Positions 1,787-21,226 of a stretch of 49,703 nucleotides of DNA are shown here, piece after piece. The position numbers were made by a program, and so were the translations under genes. Below the pieces are notes generated by a model. The model saw nothing but the letters and a program-made list of their open reading frames with translations, ran no database searches and was not told the DNA's origin. The stretch is from a virus: positions 1 through 49,703 of the IMG/VR virus record IMGVR_UViG_3300046515_000021; one strand, 5' to 3'. Each line of letters opens with the position of its first letter. The first letter of the stretch is position 1.

Positions 1787-1845
1787 GGCGAAACCGCCCG
1801 AAGGGCGGTCCGGCCAGGTGGTTCCTGGTCGCTGATGAGCCAGCC
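1787..1845 (+). ncRNA. Type II hammerhead ribozyme HHR1
   Basis: Order of parts: open stem II GGC 1787-1789, GAAA 1790-1793, stem III ACCGCCC/GGGCGGT closed by GAA (1793-1809), cleavage-site C1810, stem I of 8 bp (1811-1818 with 1824-1831, loop TGGTT), CTGATGA 1832-1838, stem II GCC 1839-1841. This is the hammerhead core with stem II open. The predicted cut is 1810/1811. Loop I GGT can pair with GCC 1843-1845. It sits between the genes at 1389 and 1868. Confidence 0.88.
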
Positions 1846-1867
1846 TGCTCGAATCGAGGGAGACATC

Positions 1868-2002
1868 ATGAGCATCCAGCTCCGCAAGGGTGAGTCCGTG
1901 AACCTGAACCAGCTCGCCCGCCAGACGCCCCAAGAGAGCGTCCTGAAGCGCCTCCTGCGCAACGACCTGAACGCCCTGGCCCTGCGCTTCGGAGGTAAGT
2001 GA
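1868..2002 (+). CDS. Small basic hypothetical protein, 44 aa
   Basis: A short frame from ATG 1868 encodes MSIQLRKGES and so on, ending FGGK. It is basic and probably helical, with no recognised family. A strong ribosome-binding site (GAGGGAG, 1855-1861) sits 6 bases before the ATG. The gene exactly fills the space between HHR1 and HHR2, which is why I believe it despite its size. After ribozyme cleavage it would lie alone on an RNA of about 225 bases. Function unknown. Confidence 0.72.
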   Translation: MSIQLRKGESVNLNQLARQTPQESVLKRLLRNDLNALALRFGGK

Positions 2003-2012
2003 CTCGGATGAA

Positions 2013-2072
2013 GGCGAAACGCCCTGCGGGGCGTCCGGCCGGCTTGGGTAGCCGACCGCTGATGAGCCAGCC
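2013..2072 (+). ncRNA. Type II hammerhead ribozyme HHR2
   Basis: Stem II GGC 2013-2015, GAAA 2016-2019, stem III ACGCCC/GGGCGT with a UGCG (UNCG-type) loop 2025-2028, C2035 at the predicted cut (2035/2036), stem I 2036-2044 with 2050-2058 containing one C-A mismatch (loop TGGGT), CTGATGA 2059-2065, GCC 2066-2068. Loop GGT can pair with GCC 2070-2072. Stem III and stem I differ from HHR1 in sequence but keep pairing, which is covariation. Confidence 0.88.
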
Positions 2073-2096
2073 TGCTCACTGTCCGAGGGGACGAGT

Positions 2097-2474
2097 GTGA
2101 CCACGTACGTACACCCCGCAGCATGGGACGAGTACACCGCCGCCCTTGACTGGGCGAGGACGGGTAACCAGCGCATCGCCGATGCGACCAGCGAGCCCCG
2201 CGAGATGCCTCGCGGTGCGAGGTACTACCTCACGAACGACTTCCAGTCCGGGTTCGGAGTGGCGAGCGACGGCACGCTGATCGGTCTGTTCTCGACGGTC
2301 AAGGGCCGCGGTACGGACCTGGTGTGGGACGCGGTGACGCACAAGGGTGCGAGCAAGCTGGACTGCTTCGACGGGTTCCTGCCCGACTACTACAAGCAGT
2401 TCGGGTTCGTCGAGACGGAGCGCGTCGCGAACTGGACGGCAGGTGAGCCGGACGTAGTGTTCATGGCGCTGTGA
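2097..2474 (+). CDS. Putative GNAT-fold acetyltransferase, 125 aa
   Basis: The length and the C-terminal pattern (YYKQFGFVETERVANW, then a final strand DVVFMAL) suggest the GNAT fold, in which a tyrosine followed by a GF turn precedes the last strands. The acetyl-CoA-binding loop (R/Q-x-x-G-x-G/A) is not clear, so activity is uncertain. The GTG start follows GAGGGGAC at 2085-2092. It lies between HHR2 and the promoter near 2497 and closes the first early unit. Phage GNAT proteins can modify host factors, but the target here is unknown; the family call itself is tentative. Confidence 0.55.
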   Translation: MTTYVHPAAWDEYTAALDWARTGNQRIADATSEPREMPRGARYYLTNDFQSGFGVASDGTLIGLFSTVKGRGTDLVWDAVTHKGASKLDCFDGFLPDYYKQFGFVETERVANWTAGEPDVVFMAL

Positions 2475-2475
2475 G

Positions 2476-2508
2476 TGTGCAACCTGCGCAAGCTGTGATA
2501 CTGTCACA
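2476..2508 (+). promoter_or_regulatory. Early promoter with overlapping operator-like palindrome
   Basis: The motif TGTGCAAC begins at 2476 and GATACT lies at 2497-2502. A perfect inverted repeat, TGTGA-TACTG-TCACA (2494-2508), covers the -10 element. The stretch from TGTGCAAC to GATACTGT is nearly repeated at 5267-5294. It should drive the unit starting at 2529 and looks repressible. Confidence 0.6.
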
Positions 2509-2528
2509 ACATCGAAAGGGGAGAGCGA

Positions 2529-2723
2529 GTGAGCAAGATCCAGGAACTGCTTCGGGCGGCAGCCGGGGGAGCGGTCATCGAGTGCAAGGTGCGGCCCGCG
2601 GAAGGGACGCGGGTGGTGTTCAGCCCCCGTGAGGATCTGGGCCGAGACCCGCTGCCCTGGCTCCTGGAGGGCGAGCAGCACGACTGGGCCCGCTACCGGA
2701 GTCGGGAGGTGGGGGCGCGGTGA
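2529..2723 (+). CDS. Small hypothetical protein, 64 aa
   Basis: GTG 2529 is preceded by AAAGGGGAGAGCGA, a strong ribosome-binding site, and by the promoter at 2476-2508. The product (MSKIQELLRAAAG...) has a short amphipathic N-terminal helix and an Arg-rich C-terminus; no domain is recognised. Its TGA stop (2721-2723) is immediately followed by HHR3, so cleavage would leave this message with a stem III hairpin about 24 bases past the stop. Confidence 0.7.
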   Translation: MSKIQELLRAAAGGAVIECKVRPAEGTRVVFSPREDLGRDPLPWLLEGEQHDWARYRSREVGAR

Positions 2724-2724
2724 A

Positions 2725-2782
2725 GGCGAAACACCCGTGAGGGTGTCTGGCCGGGTGGTGCCCGGTCACTGATGAGCCAACC
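2725..2782 (+). ncRNA. Type II hammerhead ribozyme HHR3
   Basis: Stem II GGC 2725-2727, GAAA 2728-2731, stem III ACACCC/GGGTGT with a GUGA (GNRA) loop 2737-2740, C2747 at the predicted cut (2747/2748), stem I 2748-2755 with 2761-2768 (loop TGGTG), CTGATGA 2769-2775, GCC 2776-2778. Loop GGT pairs with ACC 2780-2782. It starts directly at the upstream stop codon. Confidence 0.88.
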
Positions 2783-2794
2783 CGAGGAGCGCAC

Positions 2795-2926
2795 ATGGAC
2801 GGATACAGCATCACCCCCGAGTACAGCGTCGAGGAGCTGGCTGAGCTCCTGGCCGACCTGGAGCACACAGATCGGAGAAGGGTCCTGGAGCTGGCCGACA
2901 AGATCGCGGCATCGCACTACGAGTAG
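2795..2926 (+). CDS. Small acidic hypothetical protein, 43 aa
   Basis: ATG 2795 follows CGAGGAGCG (2783-2791). The product is acidic and Leu-rich (VEELAELLADLEH, then VLELADKIAAS) and should form two short helices. No family is recognised. It fills the space between HHR3 and HHR4. An ATG inside the HHR3 core (2772) opens an overlapping frame, but that frame has no ribosome-binding site and lies in the ribozyme. Confidence 0.7.
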   Translation: MDGYSITPEYSVEELAELLADLEHTDRRRVLELADKIAASHYE

Positions 2927-2929
2927 CAA

Positions 2930-2985
2930 GGCGAAACGCCCTCGGGCGTCTGGCCGGTTGGTTACCGGTCACTGATGAGCCAACC
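2930..2985 (+). ncRNA. Type II hammerhead ribozyme HHR4
   Basis: Stem II GGC 2930-2932, GAAA 2933-2936, stem III ACGCC/GGCGT (2936-2949, loop CTCG), C2950 at the predicted cut (2950/2951), stem I 2951-2958 with 2964-2971 (loop TGGTT), CTGATGA 2972-2978, GCC 2979-2981. Loop GGTT is fully complementary to AACC 2982-2985. It begins 3 bases after the upstream stop. Confidence 0.88.
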
Positions 2986-3026
2986 AAGCACGGCATCCAC
3001 CAGACACCGAGGCTGAAAGGCCCCAC

Positions 3027-3116
3027 ATGCAGATCACCATGCACAACACAGTCACACGTGACCACCGTGGCCACCGTGACGGGAGCAACTGGGAGGTCGC
3101 TTTCTTCAGGCGGTAA
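3027..3116 (+). CDS. Possible 29-aa peptide
   Basis: ATG 3027 follows GAAAGG (3016-3020) and opens a 29-residue His/Arg-rich frame (MQITMHNTVT..., ending AFFRR). It occupies the only coding-like position between HHR4 and HHR5. The remaining 75 bases up to HHR5 hold nothing I recognise. Support rests on position and ribosome-binding site only, so this may be untranslated spacer. Confidence 0.45.
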   Translation: MQITMHNTVTRDHRGHRDGSNWEVAFFRR

Positions 3117-3192
3117 CGCCTGGATGTGCACTGCAACACCTCACATGAGATTCCGACCAGGCGGCGAGGCTGGTCGGGGCTCGGTGACTCCA

Positions 3193-3268
3193 TGCGAAAC
3201 GCCCGGTCAACTGCCCTCAGAGGGCCGGGTGTCGGCCCAGGGCGGTGCCTGGGTCCTGATGAGCAGCC
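3193..3268 (+). ncRNA. Type II hammerhead ribozyme HHR5, extended stem III
   Basis: Stem II is TGC 3193-3195 with GCA 3263-3265, a compensatory change from GGC/GCC elsewhere. GAAA 3196-3199 is followed by a long stem III (3199-3206 with 3225-3232, then a further hairpin 3214-3224). C3233 marks the predicted cut (3233/3234). Stem I is 3234-3241 with 3248-3255 (loop GCGGTG), CTGATGA 3256-3262. Loop GGT can pair with GCC 3266-3268. Confidence 0.88.
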
Positions 3269-3293
3269 ACTCATACCCGAGAGACGAGAGACC

Positions 3294-3911
3294 ATGATCC
3301 CCATCAAGCCCGACGCCAAGACCCGCGAGCAGTACGTCCGGAACATCATCGACACGTGGCTGGACGCGTCCGCCGAGCAGGAGTTGCAGGGGCGGGACTG
3401 GTACCCGAGTGCGAACCGCCTGGCCGAGCAGATGGCGGAGGGCGATGCCCGGATCGGCGCCGGCCTGCTGGCAGCGCTGTCTCCGCAGACGGCATGGTGG
3501 TTGAACGTCGAGCTGGCTACGGAGGCGTACGAGACGGGCACCCCGGCCAGGCACCTGGGAGACGCGCTGGCCAAGGCGTCGAAGATCCTGGCGGGTGCCG
3601 ACCCGGCCGAGGTGCTGCCCATGGACCGCAAGACCGGCCACTTCTACCGCTGCATCTTCGACCCGACCGACGCGGACGCTGTCTGCATCGACAGGCACGC
3701 ACACGACATCGCGGTCGGCGAGGAGTTCGGCGCCCGTGACCGGGGCCTGGGTGCCAAGGGTCGGTACGCCCTGATCGCGCACTGCTACCGGGAGGCTGCC
3801 CAGCGCCTGGGTGAACTCCCCTCGGTGGTCCAGGCGGTGACCTGGGTGGTGTGGAGAGACAAGCTGGTCGGGACGTCTACGAGGGGAACCATGTTCGCTA
3901 CTGCGGCATGA
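3294..3911 (+). CDS. Hypothetical protein, DUF7178-like, 205 aa
   Basis: ATG 3294 follows CGAGAGACGAGAG. The protein has a helical region GAGLLAALSPQTAWW near residues 55-70 and the motif VCIDRHAHD near residue 137, with FY upstream. That layout matches my memory of a phage and plasmid family (DUF7178) that resembles helix-hairpin-helix DNA glycosylases, where the aspartate of the xDRHA motif sits in the position of a catalytic residue. No biochemical function is established to my knowledge. It is the largest of the ribozyme-separated genes, lying between HHR5 and HHR6. A DNA repair or DNA-binding role is only inferred. Confidence 0.7.
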   Translation: MIPIKPDAKTREQYVRNIIDTWLDASAEQELQGRDWYPSANRLAEQMAEGDARIGAGLLAALSPQTAWWLNVELATEAYETGTPARHLGDALAKASKILAGADPAEVLPMDRKTGHFYRCIFDPTDADAVCIDRHAHDIAVGEEFGARDRGLGAKGRYALIAHCYREAAQRLGELPSVVQAVTWVVWRDKLVGTSTRGTMFATAA

Positions 3912-3928
3912 GTGTGCAAGTGACGCAA

Positions 3929-3988
3929 GCCGAAACCGCCGAGAGGCGGTCGGGGTGGGGTGGCTCCCGCCTCCTGATGATGGCAGCC
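3929..3988 (+). ncRNA. Type II hammerhead ribozyme HHR6, variant junction
   Basis: Stem II is GCC 3929-3931 with GGC 3982-3984, reversed relative to other copies, and one extra base (T3981) stands between CTGATGA (3974-3980) and the stem. GAAA 3932-3935, stem III ACCGCC/GGCGGT with a GAGA (GNRA) loop, C3951 at the predicted cut (3951/3952), stem I 3952-3959 with 3966-3973. Loop GGC pairs with GCC 3986-3988. A copy of the TGTGCAAGTG motif (3913-3922) lies just upstream. Confidence 0.8.
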
Positions 3989-4011
3989 ATGACTGTGAAG
4001 GTGTGACAGCG

Positions 4012-4590
4012 ATGATCCCGAGCAACGTAGTGCGGTGCCTGGCCGACAACGGCCCGATCCTCTACCCGTTCGAAGGCGGCGCGTACAAGTGCAAGACCTG
4101 CGGTGGTGGGCTGAAGCCCGGACAGTCCTCGGCGTCCGGCCTGTACTGGTCCGAGAGCTACGGCTACCTCGTCGAGGGAGACCTGGTCGAGGACGAGCGC
4201 GACACCGAAGAGGAGGTCTCGGACCTGTACTCCGCGATCGGAGTGTTCGCCGAGATCCTCGGTGACCAGATGACGGCGTCGGGAGTGGGCGGTCACTTCA
4301 CCTGCTCCGAGGCGAACGAGCTGGTTCGGGCGCTGATGGTCGGAGGCAACAAGCAGGCGGCCATGACCTTCCTGGAGGGCCATGCGCAGGGTGACTACGA
4401 CGTGGACGACGAGCACGGAGACCTCCTCGACTACGAGGCGTACGTCCTGGAGCTCGCCGGACAGCCGGTACCCGAGCTGATCGAGGGGCCCAAGGGCAAG
4501 GCCGAGGTGGTGACCGAGGGCACGGTCGTGAGACACGAGCTGGAGGTGGTGACGACCGAGGAGCTGATCGTCCTGCTGAACCTGCACTGA
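4012..4590 (+). CDS. Hypothetical acidic protein with CxxC motif, 192 aa
   Basis: ATG 4012 follows GAAGGTG (3997-4003). The N-terminus has C9 and a CKTCGGG turn (C27, C30); most of the protein is strongly acidic. No family is recognised. The same ribosome-binding context (TGTGAAGGTGTGACnG, then ATG) precedes the gene at 5385, so the two leaders are related. It lies between HHR6 and HHR7, and HHR7 starts 4 bases after its stop. Confidence 0.72.
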   Translation: MIPSNVVRCLADNGPILYPFEGGAYKCKTCGGGLKPGQSSASGLYWSESYGYLVEGDLVEDERDTEEEVSDLYSAIGVFAEILGDQMTASGVGGHFTCSEANELVRALMVGGNKQAAMTFLEGHAQGDYDVDDEHGDLLDYEAYVLELAGQPVPELIEGPKGKAEVVTEGTVVRHELEVVTTEELIVLLNLH

Positions 4591-4593
4591 CAA

Positions 4594-4650
4594 GGCGAAA
4601 CCCCTTCGGGGGTCCGGGGTGGGTGGCATCCCCCCGCTGATGAGCCTGCC
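4594..4650 (+). ncRNA. Type II hammerhead ribozyme HHR7
   Basis: Stem II GGC 4594-4596, GAAA 4597-4600, stem III ACCCC/GGGGT with a UUCG tetraloop (4605-4608), C4614 at the predicted cut (4614/4615), stem I CGGGG 4615-4619 with 4632-4636 plus weaker inner pairing, CTGATGA 4637-4643, GCC 4644-4646. GGC 4625-4627 in loop I can pair with GCC 4648-4650. Confidence 0.85.
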
Positions 4651-4671
4651 GCACGTGATCGGAGAACCACA

Positions 4672-4815
4672 GTGACCCCCAAGTTCCGCACCCACGACGT
4701 GAACCACCGCGACTCGAAGCGTAAGGACAAGGCCACCACCCTGACCCGCAAGCACGTCCGGCAGAACAAGTACGAGGGCAACGAGGCCGTCGTCCGCATC
4801 GCCGTCAGCGCCTGA
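4672..4815 (+). CDS. Small basic protein, 47 aa
   Basis: GTG 4672 follows GATCGGAGAACCACA (GGAG at 4661-4664). The product is highly basic (HRDSKRKDK, then LTRKHVRQNKYEG) and may bind nucleic acid or ribosomes; no family is recognised. It lies just after HHR7 and 28 bases before the next gene, with no ribozyme between the two, so they would share one message. Confidence 0.68.
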   Translation: MTPKFRTHDVNHRDSKRKDKATTLTRKHVRQNKYEGNEAVVRIAVSA

Positions 4816-4843
4816 GACCTACACCAACCCGAGAGGCAAGCCA

Positions 4844-5263
4844 GTGATCACCGAGAAGATCCTCGCAGCACTGACCGACGAGAACGTCCAGGACATCATC
4901 GACATTGGCGCCGGGGGTGGCATCAACTACTGGGCCATCGAGCCGAGCGGCGAGGAGTTCGCCGGCCTGCCCGCGGGGAAGGCGTACACCATCGTCGAGG
5001 GTGAGCACGACACCTGGCTGGGGCTGGAGGGTGACCGCGAGGTCGAGGCGGTCCACTACCTGAGCAAGGACCAGGTGCGGGTGGCATACGGCAGACTCCT
5101 CGACCTCGACCAGGAGTTCGTGAACCAGGAGTACCACGGCTACATCGTCCAGTCCTGGATCGACCGGACCGAGAAGGACGGCATCGACGCCTCGCACATC
5201 GACGCCGGTACGGCCGACGTCATCATCCAGCTCGCGGCACTGGGAGAGATCCGATACGGCTGA
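4844..5263 (+). CDS. Hypothetical protein, 139 aa
   Basis: GTG 4844 follows GAGAGGCAAGCCA. The acidic product starts MITEKILAAL and contains a central YTIVEGEHDTW region followed by a helical half. Late in the protein, FVNQEYHGYIVQSW is aromatic-rich. I recognise no catalytic motif or family. It closes the second early unit, since a GATACT promoter follows at 5287. Confidence 0.7.
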   Translation: MITEKILAALTDENVQDIIDIGAGGGINYWAIEPSGEEFAGLPAGKAYTIVEGEHDTWLGLEGDREVEAVHYLSKDQVRVAYGRLLDLDQEFVNQEYHGYIVQSWIDRTEKDGIDASHIDAGTADVIIQLAALGEIRYG

Positions 5264-5265
5264 CA

Positions 5266-5293
5266 TTGTGCAACCTGCGCAGCAGTGATACTG
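5266..5293 (+). promoter_or_regulatory. Early promoter with TGTGCAAC motif
   Basis: TTGTGC at 5266-5271 and GATACT at 5287-5292 with a 15-base spacer. Sequence between the motif and the -10 is nearly identical to the site at 2476-2503. The predicted transcript would start about 10 bases before HHR8, so its 5' leader would be removed by that ribozyme. Confidence 0.55.
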
Positions 5294-5305
5294 TGACCAC
5301 ATCAA

Positions 5306-5366
5306 GGCGAAACCACCCGGAGGGGTGGTCGGGTGGAGCGGACCTCCATTCCCTGAAGAGCCAACC
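5306..5366 (+). ncRNA. Type II hammerhead ribozyme HHR8 (CTGAAGA core)
   Basis: Stem II GGC 5306-5308, GAAA 5309-5312, stem III ACCACC/GGTGGT-type pairing (5312-5329), C5330 at the predicted cut (5330/5331), stem I 5331-5338 with 5344-5352 (one bulged T), core CTGAAGA 5353-5359, GCC 5360-5362. The core differs only at position 7, which is free to vary in hammerheads. The loop-to-flank pairing is the weakest of the nine (GG with CC only). Confidence 0.83.
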
Positions 5367-5384
5367 ATTGTGAAGGTGTGACCG

Positions 5385-5798
5385 ATGGACATCATCGAGC
5401 GGATCAACCACTACAACCCCCCGACCCTGGCCCGACTCGCCGAGTGCGCCGAGCCTGCCTCGCACGTGAGTGACGGTGCCGACTTCCTCGCCCACGTACG
5501 GGACAAGGTGGTCGAGCTGGTCGAGCAGTACGTGAAGGAGGAGGGGGGCCAGCACGCTGACGCGGTCACCCACTACCGGGAACCCATCCAGGACACCGCC
5601 GCCGTGGCTGGCATGAGTGCCGACCCCGTCGAGAAGTGGCGCCAGTTCGTGGACCTCCGCACCTACGAGGAGGACACCGCCGAGTTCGGTACGCCCACCA
5701 ACAACACGCTCGAAGGGCACGCCGACCTGGCGCTCTTCTTCATCGGCTTCCGCCTGGCGAGCAAGCTGCTTACCGAGATCGAGGAGGGCTCCAAGTGA
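5385..5798 (+). CDS. Hypothetical protein, 137 aa
   Basis: ATG 5385 follows GAAGGTGTGACCG, the same ribosome-binding context as the gene at 4012. The product (MDIIERINHYNPPTL...) is acidic and probably all-helical, with no recognised domain. Its stop overlaps the next start by 4 bases (GTGA), so the two are translationally coupled. It is the first gene of the unit driven from 5266-5293, directly behind HHR8. Confidence 0.72.
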   Translation: MDIIERINHYNPPTLARLAECAEPASHVSDGADFLAHVRDKVVELVEQYVKEEGGQHADAVTHYREPIQDTAAVAGMSADPVEKWRQFVDLRTYEEDTAEFGTPTNNTLEGHADLALFFIGFRLASKLLTEIEEGSK

Positions 5799-6007
5799 GC
5801 CGCATGGGAGACCTGGTCATCGACCTGATGAGCCACGAGGCAGGCGAGCTCGACGACACCGAGACGCTGGAGCTGTTCGCCCTGCTGATCAAGAGCGGGA
5901 TGTGCTGGAAGCTCGGCCGCCACTACTGGGACACGGGCAGCAGGCTGATCGACGCTCGCCTGATCACCGAGGAGGGGGACATTCTCCAGGAGGTGGTCCT
6001 GACGTGA
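5795..6007 (+). CDS. Hypothetical protein, 70 aa
   Basis: GTG 5795 overlaps the previous stop (GTGA) and its own stop overlaps the next start (GTGA), so three genes form a coupled string. The product is small and helical (GDLVIDLMSHEAG, then ELFALLIKSGMCWKLGRHYW). An ATG three codons in is the alternative start. The sequence CTGATGAGCC occurs inside it (5825-5834) but without other hammerhead parts. Confidence 0.7.
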   Translation: MSRMGDLVIDLMSHEAGELDDTETLELFALLIKSGMCWKLGRHYWDTGSRLIDARLITEEGDILQEVVLT

Positions 6008-6429
6008 GCGACATGCCTCGCCAGTTGAGTGCGCGGGTCGACGAGGAGCTGGCCCGCCACATCAAGACCCTCGCCCCGACCGGCCTGAGTTACAGCGAGA
6101 TCATCAAACGGGCGGTCGCCCAGTTCGCCGAGGTGTACGCCGTGGCCGTAGAGAACGGCGTCGCCGAGCCGCGTGAGATTCCCAAGCTGACCGCCTACCG
6201 GTACCAGCTTCCCCCCAAGCCGCAGCCTCCCCGCACTGGAGAGGTCACCATGAAGGAGACACCTGATGAAGACCGCAGCCCGCTACGTCCTGACGTTCCT
6301 CGCCCTCGCCCTGCTGGGCTCGCTGACCTGGAACTCGCCGGCCTCCGCCTCGGACGCCAAGCCCGTGACCCTGCCCGCCAAGGTGAAGTACGTGCCCGTG
6401 TTCCACATCCCGAGCAAGCCGTGCGCTGA
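6004..6429 (+). CDS. Ribbon-helix-helix regulator with overprinted tail, 141 aa
   Basis: GTG 6004 follows AGGAGGTGG. Residues 4-45 (MPRQLSARVDEELARHIK, then LSYSEIIKRAVAQFAEVY) have the Arc/MetJ-type ribbon-helix-helix pattern: a short strand followed by two helices. Such proteins dimerise and bind operators. The frame stays open past the ATG of the next gene and overlaps it by 164 bases; in the overlap the other frame has the GC-rich third positions, so the last 55 residues (Arg/Pro-rich) look like overprinted sequence. Either the gene truly overlaps or a stop near 6260 has been lost. Confidence 0.72.
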   Translation: MSDMPRQLSARVDEELARHIKTLAPTGLSYSEIIKRAVAQFAEVYAVAVENGVAEPREIPKLTAYRYQLPPKPQPPRTGEVTMKETPDEDRSPLRPDVPRPRPAGLADLELAGLRLGRQARDPARQGEVRARVPHPEQAVR

Positions 6430-6694
6430 AGATGGAGACGACACGAACTGCCACTGGGACGCGGCCAAGCGGGGCAACGGCAAGGGGTACTCGTACTACG
6501 TCGACCGCGCTGGCAACGTGACGTACCTGAACCCGAAGCTGAACGACCCGGCCAAGCGCCAGGCGTGGGCCAAGAAGAACAAGGCCGCGCACCGTGAGTA
6601 CTGGGGCACCGTGTTCGGACACCGCCTGTGCTGGGCCCGCGTAGGCAACACGTCCTACGTCTACTGCTTCGACGGGTACCGCGAGACTTCCTGA
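6266..6694 (+). CDS. Putative secreted cysteine-containing protein, 142 aa
   Basis: ATG 6266 follows AAGGAG with ideal spacing. The N-terminus is a clear signal peptide: basic KTAAR, a hydrophobic core around residues 7-20 (VLTFLALALLG), then a cleavage region ending SPASA at about residue 28. The mature part has four cysteines (CAEDGDDTNC, then CWARVGNTSYVYC), enough for two disulfides, plus a lysine-rich centre. No family is recognised. An early secreted phage protein could act in superinfection exclusion or on the cell envelope, but that is inference. It is followed by HHR9. Confidence 0.78.
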   Translation: MKTAARYVLTFLALALLGSLTWNSPASASDAKPVTLPAKVKYVPVFHIPSKPCAEDGDDTNCHWDAAKRGNGKGYSYYVDRAGNVTYLNPKLNDPAKRQAWAKKNKAAHREYWGTVFGHRLCWARVGNTSYVYCFDGYRETS

Positions 6695-6696
6695 TC

Positions 6697-6706
6697 TGTG
6701 CAAGTG
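6697..6706 (+). promoter_or_regulatory. TGTGCAAGTG motif
   Basis: An exact copy of the dispersed motif, 2 bases after the stop of the secreted-protein gene and directly before HHR9. There is no GATACT element downstream, so this copy is not obviously part of a promoter. Confidence 0.5.
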
Positions 6707-6765
6707 TGCCGAAACCCCTTCGGGGGTCGGGGTGGGGTGGTGCCCACCTCCTGACGAAGGCAGCC
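6707..6765 (+). ncRNA. Type II hammerhead ribozyme HHR9, variant junction
   Basis: Stem II TGCC 6707-6710 with GGCA 6759-6762 and one extra base (A6758), as in HHR6. GAAA 6711-6714, stem III ACCCC/GGGGT with a UUCG loop, C6728 at the predicted cut (6728/6729), stem I 6729-6736 with 6743-6750, core CTGACGA 6751-6757 (C at free position 7). Loop GGT pairs with GCC 6763-6765. Confidence 0.82.
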
Positions 6766-6785
6766 ACGGTGAGAGGAGCACGACA

Positions 6786-21157: not shown

Positions 21158-21198
21158 CTCCCAGTAATGCCGAGCTGACGCCCGGCGATGTCTGCGAC

Positions 21199-21226
21199 AG
21201 TATCACACTTACGAACCAAGATTCAA
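21199..21226 (-). promoter_or_regulatory. Internal promoter of the replication operon
   Basis: On the reverse strand TTGAAT (21226-21221), a 16-base spacer and GATACT (21204-21199) match the early promoter family, including GTGTGATACTGTCGC. It overlaps the 3' end of the ATPase gene and would transcribe the nuclease, primase and downstream genes. Confidence 0.6.

Follow-up and report, generated by a model that had tools for sequence, protein, structure and literature searches.

The viral DNA considered here (IMG/VR record IMGVR_UViG_3300046515_000021, 49,703 nucleotides (nt) in full and called the window throughout) carries nine elements between its early genes which, by Rfam matches, conservation of the core and covariation of the stems, are recognizable as type II hammerhead ribozymes. 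It is likely that these nine ribozymes cut a long early transcript between genes. In a set of sister phages an unrelated, tRNA-like RNA element stands at corresponding gene boundaries.

Nine hammerheads in a Streptomyces phage

The first 12 kb of the window matches 129 phage records, every one of them a Streptomyces phage, the closest being Spernnie (Sentinelvirus, Arquatrovirinae) with 85% identity over 81%. Because of these matches we assign the window to a Streptomyces siphophage of the R4-like group (Arquatrovirinae), with the sequence running from its early end.

An earlier note, made from the letters of the window alone, had described nine type II hammerheads in this region and suggested a search with covariance models as a check. 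The Rfam model RF02276 (Hammerhead_II) indeed matches at all nine places and at no further position of the window. Eight copies score above its gathering score (38.8–54.2 bits, E-values from 1.7e-8 to 1.9e-4 against all of Rfam). The ninth match, copy 8 at 5305–5370, reaches 28.9 bits against a gathering score of 37 bits, with an E-value of 0.072 against all of Rfam and of 1.7e-5 when RF02276 alone is searched on the window record. All matches are confined to the + strand, and elsewhere the window reaches no more than 12.5 bits. An independent descriptor composed of an open stem II, GAAA, hairpin III, UH, hairpin I and CUGANGA finds exactly nine copies on the + strand, at the same places as RF02276; the opposite strand and the reversed window give no match. 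The CUGANGA ... GAAA core and an NUH cleavage site are present in all nine, stems I and III are closed by hairpins and stem II is open, as the type II hammerhead requires. Both the architecture and the nine cut positions given in the earlier note are thereby reproduced (Table 1). Its description of the stem III loops as mostly UUCG, UNCG or GNRA was somewhat generous, strict UNCG or GNRA loops accounting for about five of the nine. Copy 8 is the weakest, with an A at N7, an imperfect stem I and a poor pseudoknot; its core is complete.

Is such a number of copies exceptional? The earlier note had thought nine in one operon region unusual, which does not hold within this phage group: at E-values up to 0.001, RF02276 finds 8–13 copies in each of 18 out of 20 relatives, so nine appears to be normal here. 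GAAA and CUGANGA are kept in all 35 of the relatives' RF02276 hits that were inspected separately from the descriptor. The annotated records of Spernnie, Caelum and R4 list no ribozyme.

Paired stems and a pseudoknot

To judge the stems, copies were collected by anchors only (GAAAC, GUH and CUGANGA at allowed spacings), with no pairing required. This yields 152 distinct copies from the window and the 18 relatives, and none from reversed sequence. Stem II is fully paired in 151 of the 152 copies, while pairs 3–5 of stem III and 1–8 of stem I are each formed in 122–144 copies, in every case above every shuffle. In an alignment of 18 copies of equal length, 97.1% of the cells pair and 10 of the 21 pairs show two-sided changes, bearing out the earlier statement that stems I and III vary in sequence yet stay paired; slid versions of the same alignment fall to 28–51% pairing. 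The relatedness of the sequences inflates such covariation counts, but slides and shuffles are both far lower nonetheless.

A pseudoknot between loop I and the 3' tail, which had escaped the earlier note, has been described for type II hammerheads as common but not universal (PMC3088659). Its Watson-Crick run is longer than in all of 300 tail shuffles, and 86% of the cells are paired. The pairing is clear in the window at copies 4 (UGGUU/AACCA), 6 (UGGCU/AGCCA) and 7 (GGCA/UGCC, each given as loop/tail) and weak in copy 8. Taking the window and its relatives together, the descriptor gives 176 copies in which N7 is U, C or A and the cleaved nucleotide is C in 163, U in 11 and A in 2; the core is a selection criterion in this set, as the descriptor demands it.

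Placement between genes

The copies stand between a stop codon and the ribosome-binding site that follows it. In the window they begin 1–42 nt past the upstream stop codon and cut 47–61 nt ahead of the next start, the exceptions being copies 4 and 5, which lie on either side of a short open reading frame (ORF) at 3027–3116. Over the 176 copies the 5–75% range of the cut-to-start distance is 47–62 nt, and only five cuts fall inside predicted genes. Within arrays, 135 of 148 gaps of 60–150 nt (91%) hold a ribozyme, compared with none of the 109 gaps of up to 10 nt. These gene-context counts carry some error, since the gene caller recovers 28 of the 31 stops in R4. The strictly intergenic placement fits a cutting of polycistronic early RNA at gene boundaries, and the exchange in sister phages described below strengthens the case.

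The earlier note had the array divide early RNA into single-gene messages. While intergenic cutting agrees with the placement, the predicted RNA pieces are 203–1398 nt long and hold one to about four genes each, so "single-gene" is an overstatement. As GC-rich hairpins between genes, the elements could also be thought of as transcription terminators or attenuators; with no U tract behind them and no site at any of the nine in a terminator scan, we find this scarcely credible.

Several observations weigh against the cutting array. Copy 8 lies below the Rfam threshold, the predicted best fold of copy 4 differs from the hammerhead, and some of the predicted pieces retain two to four genes. Copy 8 is also found right behind a promoter-like site, where a cut would mostly trim a leader and not split genes. 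Folding energies of single copies are unimpressive (z-scores from +0.19 to −3.07); we set them aside as evidence because they are uninformative in GC-rich sequence. Finally, the whole case is built on sequence analysis.

Which end of the RNA matters?

A different emphasis would make the ribozymes mainly insulators of the 5' leader that strip off variable upstream RNA and so present every ribosome-binding site with an identical leader, the splitting of operons being a by-product. RiboJ insulators work in this manner: an engineered hammerhead in the 5' leader standardises the start of an mRNA, whereas the phage hammerheads are natural and repeated along the operon. The nearly constant distance from cut to start speaks for such a role, as does copy 8 with its promoter-like site, a layout that recurs in most relatives. 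Furthermore, the half to the right of the cut is more similar between copies that share the downstream gene (0.838) than between those that share the upstream gene (0.777, p = 4e-4), and therefore the downstream leader travels with its gene. Every copy, however, also has a stable stem III near the upstream stop codon, and most lack a promoter-like site nearby (23 of 176 have one). This reading overlaps with that of a cutting array, the difference being which RNA end matters, and we keep it as a tentative alternative of somewhat less than even probability. A corresponding dependence of the left half on the upstream gene was considered and dropped, as there is no bias (p = 0.69), though single pairs appear chimeric.

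The neighbourhood of the ribozymes is mosaic. Across ribozyme junctions the family of the next gene is the same in 0.375 of comparisons, as against about 0.665 across the other, tight junctions. One could take this to mean that the elements serve as DNA, providing short stretches of homology at which gene cassettes recombine, with ribozyme activity incidental. Five phages have hammerhead doublets of the sort expected if a gene separating two copies were lost. Yet the stems covary as RNA, the copies differ in sequence and would make poor homology, core and pseudoknot are retained, the left half does not track the upstream gene, and the element of the sister phages has a different sequence altogether. 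We consider recombination an unlikely explanation.

The doublets themselves stand back to back, 10–11 nt apart, in Spernnie, Alvy, Marav, Sentinel and phiScoe1. They would free an RNA of 64–70 nt. In each doublet the leading copy has its predicted cut following a U and is able to form a pseudoknot of 6 bp.

A tRNA-like element at the same boundaries

No hammerhead was found in nine sister phages, namely phiScoe15, Pavo, Danzina, Zemlya, phiCAM, Amela, Verabelle, Sitrop and phiScoe10 (Camvirus, Likavirus and allies). Their gaps between early genes hold a 43-nt element resembling a miniature tRNA: a 5-bp acceptor-like stem, GGCA, a 6-bp T-stem with a TTCGA T-loop, and RC(U/G), usually followed on the 3' side by a hairpin, a ribosome-binding site and a start codon. 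The invariant GGCA resembles G18-G19 of the D-loop. With an acceptor stem on a T-arm (5+6 bp), a T-loop and a GG partner, the element has the layout of a tRNA-like substrate of RNase P or RNase Z.

Among 32 distinct copies 100% of the cells pair, and 9 of 13 pairs show two-sided changes. Two of the covarying pairs, 7-13 and 14-29, are tertiary; the search descriptor included the stem pairs and not these. In the Streptomyces set G1-C40 is invariant and N-1 is mostly A. A covariance model of the element finds 7–10 copies in each of the nine sister phages; in the 18 hammerhead phages it finds nothing. Rfam has no family above threshold for it, only a weak resemblance to mascRNA, and the cloverleaf test of ARAGORN, which is blind to the element, calls no genes in two sister phages (phiScoe15 and Pavo).

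The correspondence of the two elements is best seen at one conserved gene pair, A (4672) and B (4844). In 19 of 19 hammerhead phages a hammerhead stands before A and after B and none between them; in nine of nine sister phages the 43-nt element occupies both places and is likewise missing in between, gene A having no significant match in seven of these, where its place is inferred from B. The element after B is at most 50 nt away in 17 of the 19 hammerhead phages and 7 of the 9 sister phages.

That unrelated elements replace each other at matching junctions speaks for a common function, the cleavage of RNA between genes. It suggests that the conserved thing is the cut and not the hammerhead. 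The balance tips slightly towards a picture in which one subfamily uses two unrelated RNA elements for the same job at the same boundaries, its early operons being punctuated by interchangeable RNA-cleavage signals. In this picture host RNase P or RNase Z would probably cut the 43-nt element, or it may itself be a new self-cleaving class.

Could the hammerheads instead be decayed or selfish copies that do nothing for the phage? Selfish elements commonly harbour hammerheads (PMC3088659). Here, however, the cores are intact in all checked copies, the 18 phages carry 8–13 copies each, the placement is strictly intergenic, and another structured RNA takes their place in the sister phages, all of which makes this reading very improbable.

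In mitochondrial transcripts, tRNAs punctuate the RNA between genes. The sister-phage element shares this tRNA-shaped intergenic position; it measures only 43 nt, lacks an anticodon arm, goes uncalled by ARAGORN and passes no Rfam threshold. It is apparently undescribed. It occurs also in three IMG/VR contigs, 3300025875_000028 (15 copies), 3300035115_000001 (8) and 3300012984_000026 (6), where a hairpin and a start codon mostly follow.

A proposed role for the array

How would the array act? The orientation and spacing of the early genes suggest that they are transcribed as a long RNA, in which each ribozyme would cut itself in the cell, as its family is known to do. The upstream RNA would then end with the stem III hairpin and a 2',3'-cyclic phosphate, and the downstream RNA would begin with a 5'-OH directly on the stem I hairpin, about 47–62 nt ahead of the next start codon. 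Ends of these kinds, a 5'-OH on a hairpin and a cyclic phosphate, are poor substrates for decay of the RppH, RNase J/E and PNPase types, and the products may resist host RNases. Because the cuts would fix both RNA ends, the array could unlink neighbouring genes and give the downstream gene or small block a standard 5' leader whatever lies upstream. Standard leaders would be well suited to an early region with frequent gene exchange.

Relation to known systems

A single element is no different from the known type II hammerhead (RF02276; Perreault et al. 2011, PMC3088659), with which it shares architecture, core, NUH site, the pseudoknot of loop I with the 3' tail and the occurrence in phages and prophages, one of the nine copies falling below the curated threshold. 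That clustered hammerheads divide phage transcripts into mRNAs of operon or gene length was proposed in the same work, which describes a triple array around ardA in Agrobacterium tumefaciens, among prophage genes, and reports that a triple array cleaved both in vitro and in E. coli (PMC3088659). As in those prophage clusters, several ribozymes of one strand flank single genes or short blocks of one presumed transcription unit. Unlike them, the present array has nine copies, 8–13 across 18 phages, and comes with positional, mosaic and replacement evidence. Streptomyces is absent from the text of PMC3088659, and searches of open-access literature returned no report of hammerheads in Streptomyces phages, though one may exist elsewhere and supplementary hammerhead lists were not covered. 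HDV-like theta ribozymes of gut phages (PMC10879173) are also self-cleaving, found in double-stranded DNA phages and credited with RNA processing; they belong to another ribozyme class and are tied to tRNAs, not to gene boundaries.

This kind of array has thus been known, and its splitting role proposed, since 2011. New are the conserved array of Streptomyces phages and, as the most novel part, the swap in their sister phages. The function of phage hammerheads has been a standing question since 2011, and isolated, culturable Streptomyces phages, R4 included, with 8–13 conserved copies and a sister swap make the operon-splitting idea directly testable. The swap further draws attention to a class of tRNA-like RNAs, possibly an alternative that depends on host enzymes. 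A link to the inhibition of phages by aminoglycosides was rejected: the paper in question (PMC9239200) cites hammerhead binding only generally, and the S. coelicolor phages in it were not inhibited.

The largest array met in this analysis is that of another IMG/VR virus of 57 kb (3300017605_000570), with 24 type II hammerhead hits at about 9.9–17.5 kb (about 7.6 kb). Most of these begin at or beside the stop codon of the preceding gene and lead into a ribosome-binding site and a start codon. A loose pattern scan of IMG/VR was discarded, as it returned mostly single hits that are possibly due to chance.

The early gene block

Table 1. Hammerhead copies and neighbouring features of the window (all on the + strand; HHR-II, type II hammerhead ribozyme).
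Feature	Position	Predicted cut after	Basis	Remarks
HHR-II copy 1	1787..1845	C1810	RF02276 45.6 bits; descriptor	stem II to pseudoknot tail
HHR-II copy 2	2013..2072	C2035	RF02276 41.7 bits; descriptor	
HHR-II copy 3	2725..2782	C2747	RF02276 46.1 bits; descriptor	begins 1 nt past stop codon of gene 2529-2723
HHR-II copy 4	2930..2986	C2950	RF02276 43.7 bits; descriptor	pseudoknot as in text
HHR-II copy 5	3193..3268	C3233	RF02276 53.8 bits; descriptor	long stem III; stem II UGC/GCA
HHR-II copy 6	3929..3989	C3951	RF02276 54.2 bits; descriptor	stem II GCC/GGC and one inserted nt
HHR-II copy 7	4594..4650	C4614	RF02276 38.8 bits; descriptor	5' of conserved gene pair 4672/4844
HHR-II copy 8	5306..5366	C5330	RF02276 28.9 bits; descriptor	CUGAAGA; begins about 12 nt past TGATACTGT site
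HHR-II copy 9	6707..6766	C6728	RF02276 46.0 bits; descriptor	CUGACGA; stem II UGCC/GGCA and one inserted nt
Early gene block	1389..7109		gene model	interrupted by ribozymes
Early genes, first part	1389-1775, 1868-2002, 2097-2474, 2529-2723, 2795-2926, 3294-3911		gene model	
Early genes, second part	4012-4590, 4672-4815, 4844-5263, 5385-5798, 5795-6007, 6266-6694, 6786-7109		gene model	
Gene pair A-B	4672..5263		junction comparison	no element between the two genes
TGATACTGT	5286..5294		exact repeat	promoter- or operator-like site just 5' of copy 8

The protein of gene 3294-3911 matches the Pfam family DUF7178 (PF23802), and for the other array genes tested the matches are to PHROGs without known function; genes for a dNMP kinase and ThyX are found downstream. 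The short ORF between copies 4 and 5, a candidate of 29 amino acids, was not called by the gene model.

A sigma-70 scan, which is unsuited to the host of this phage, found no promoters. The promoter-like site ahead of copy 8 recurs exactly, as TGATACTGT, at 855, 1359, 2496 and 8101 on the + strand and at 21197-21205 on the − strand. The repeats are perhaps early promoters, or else repressor stoperators as reported for R4-like phages. Several of the sites have a TGTGCAA-like sequence about 20 nt upstream.

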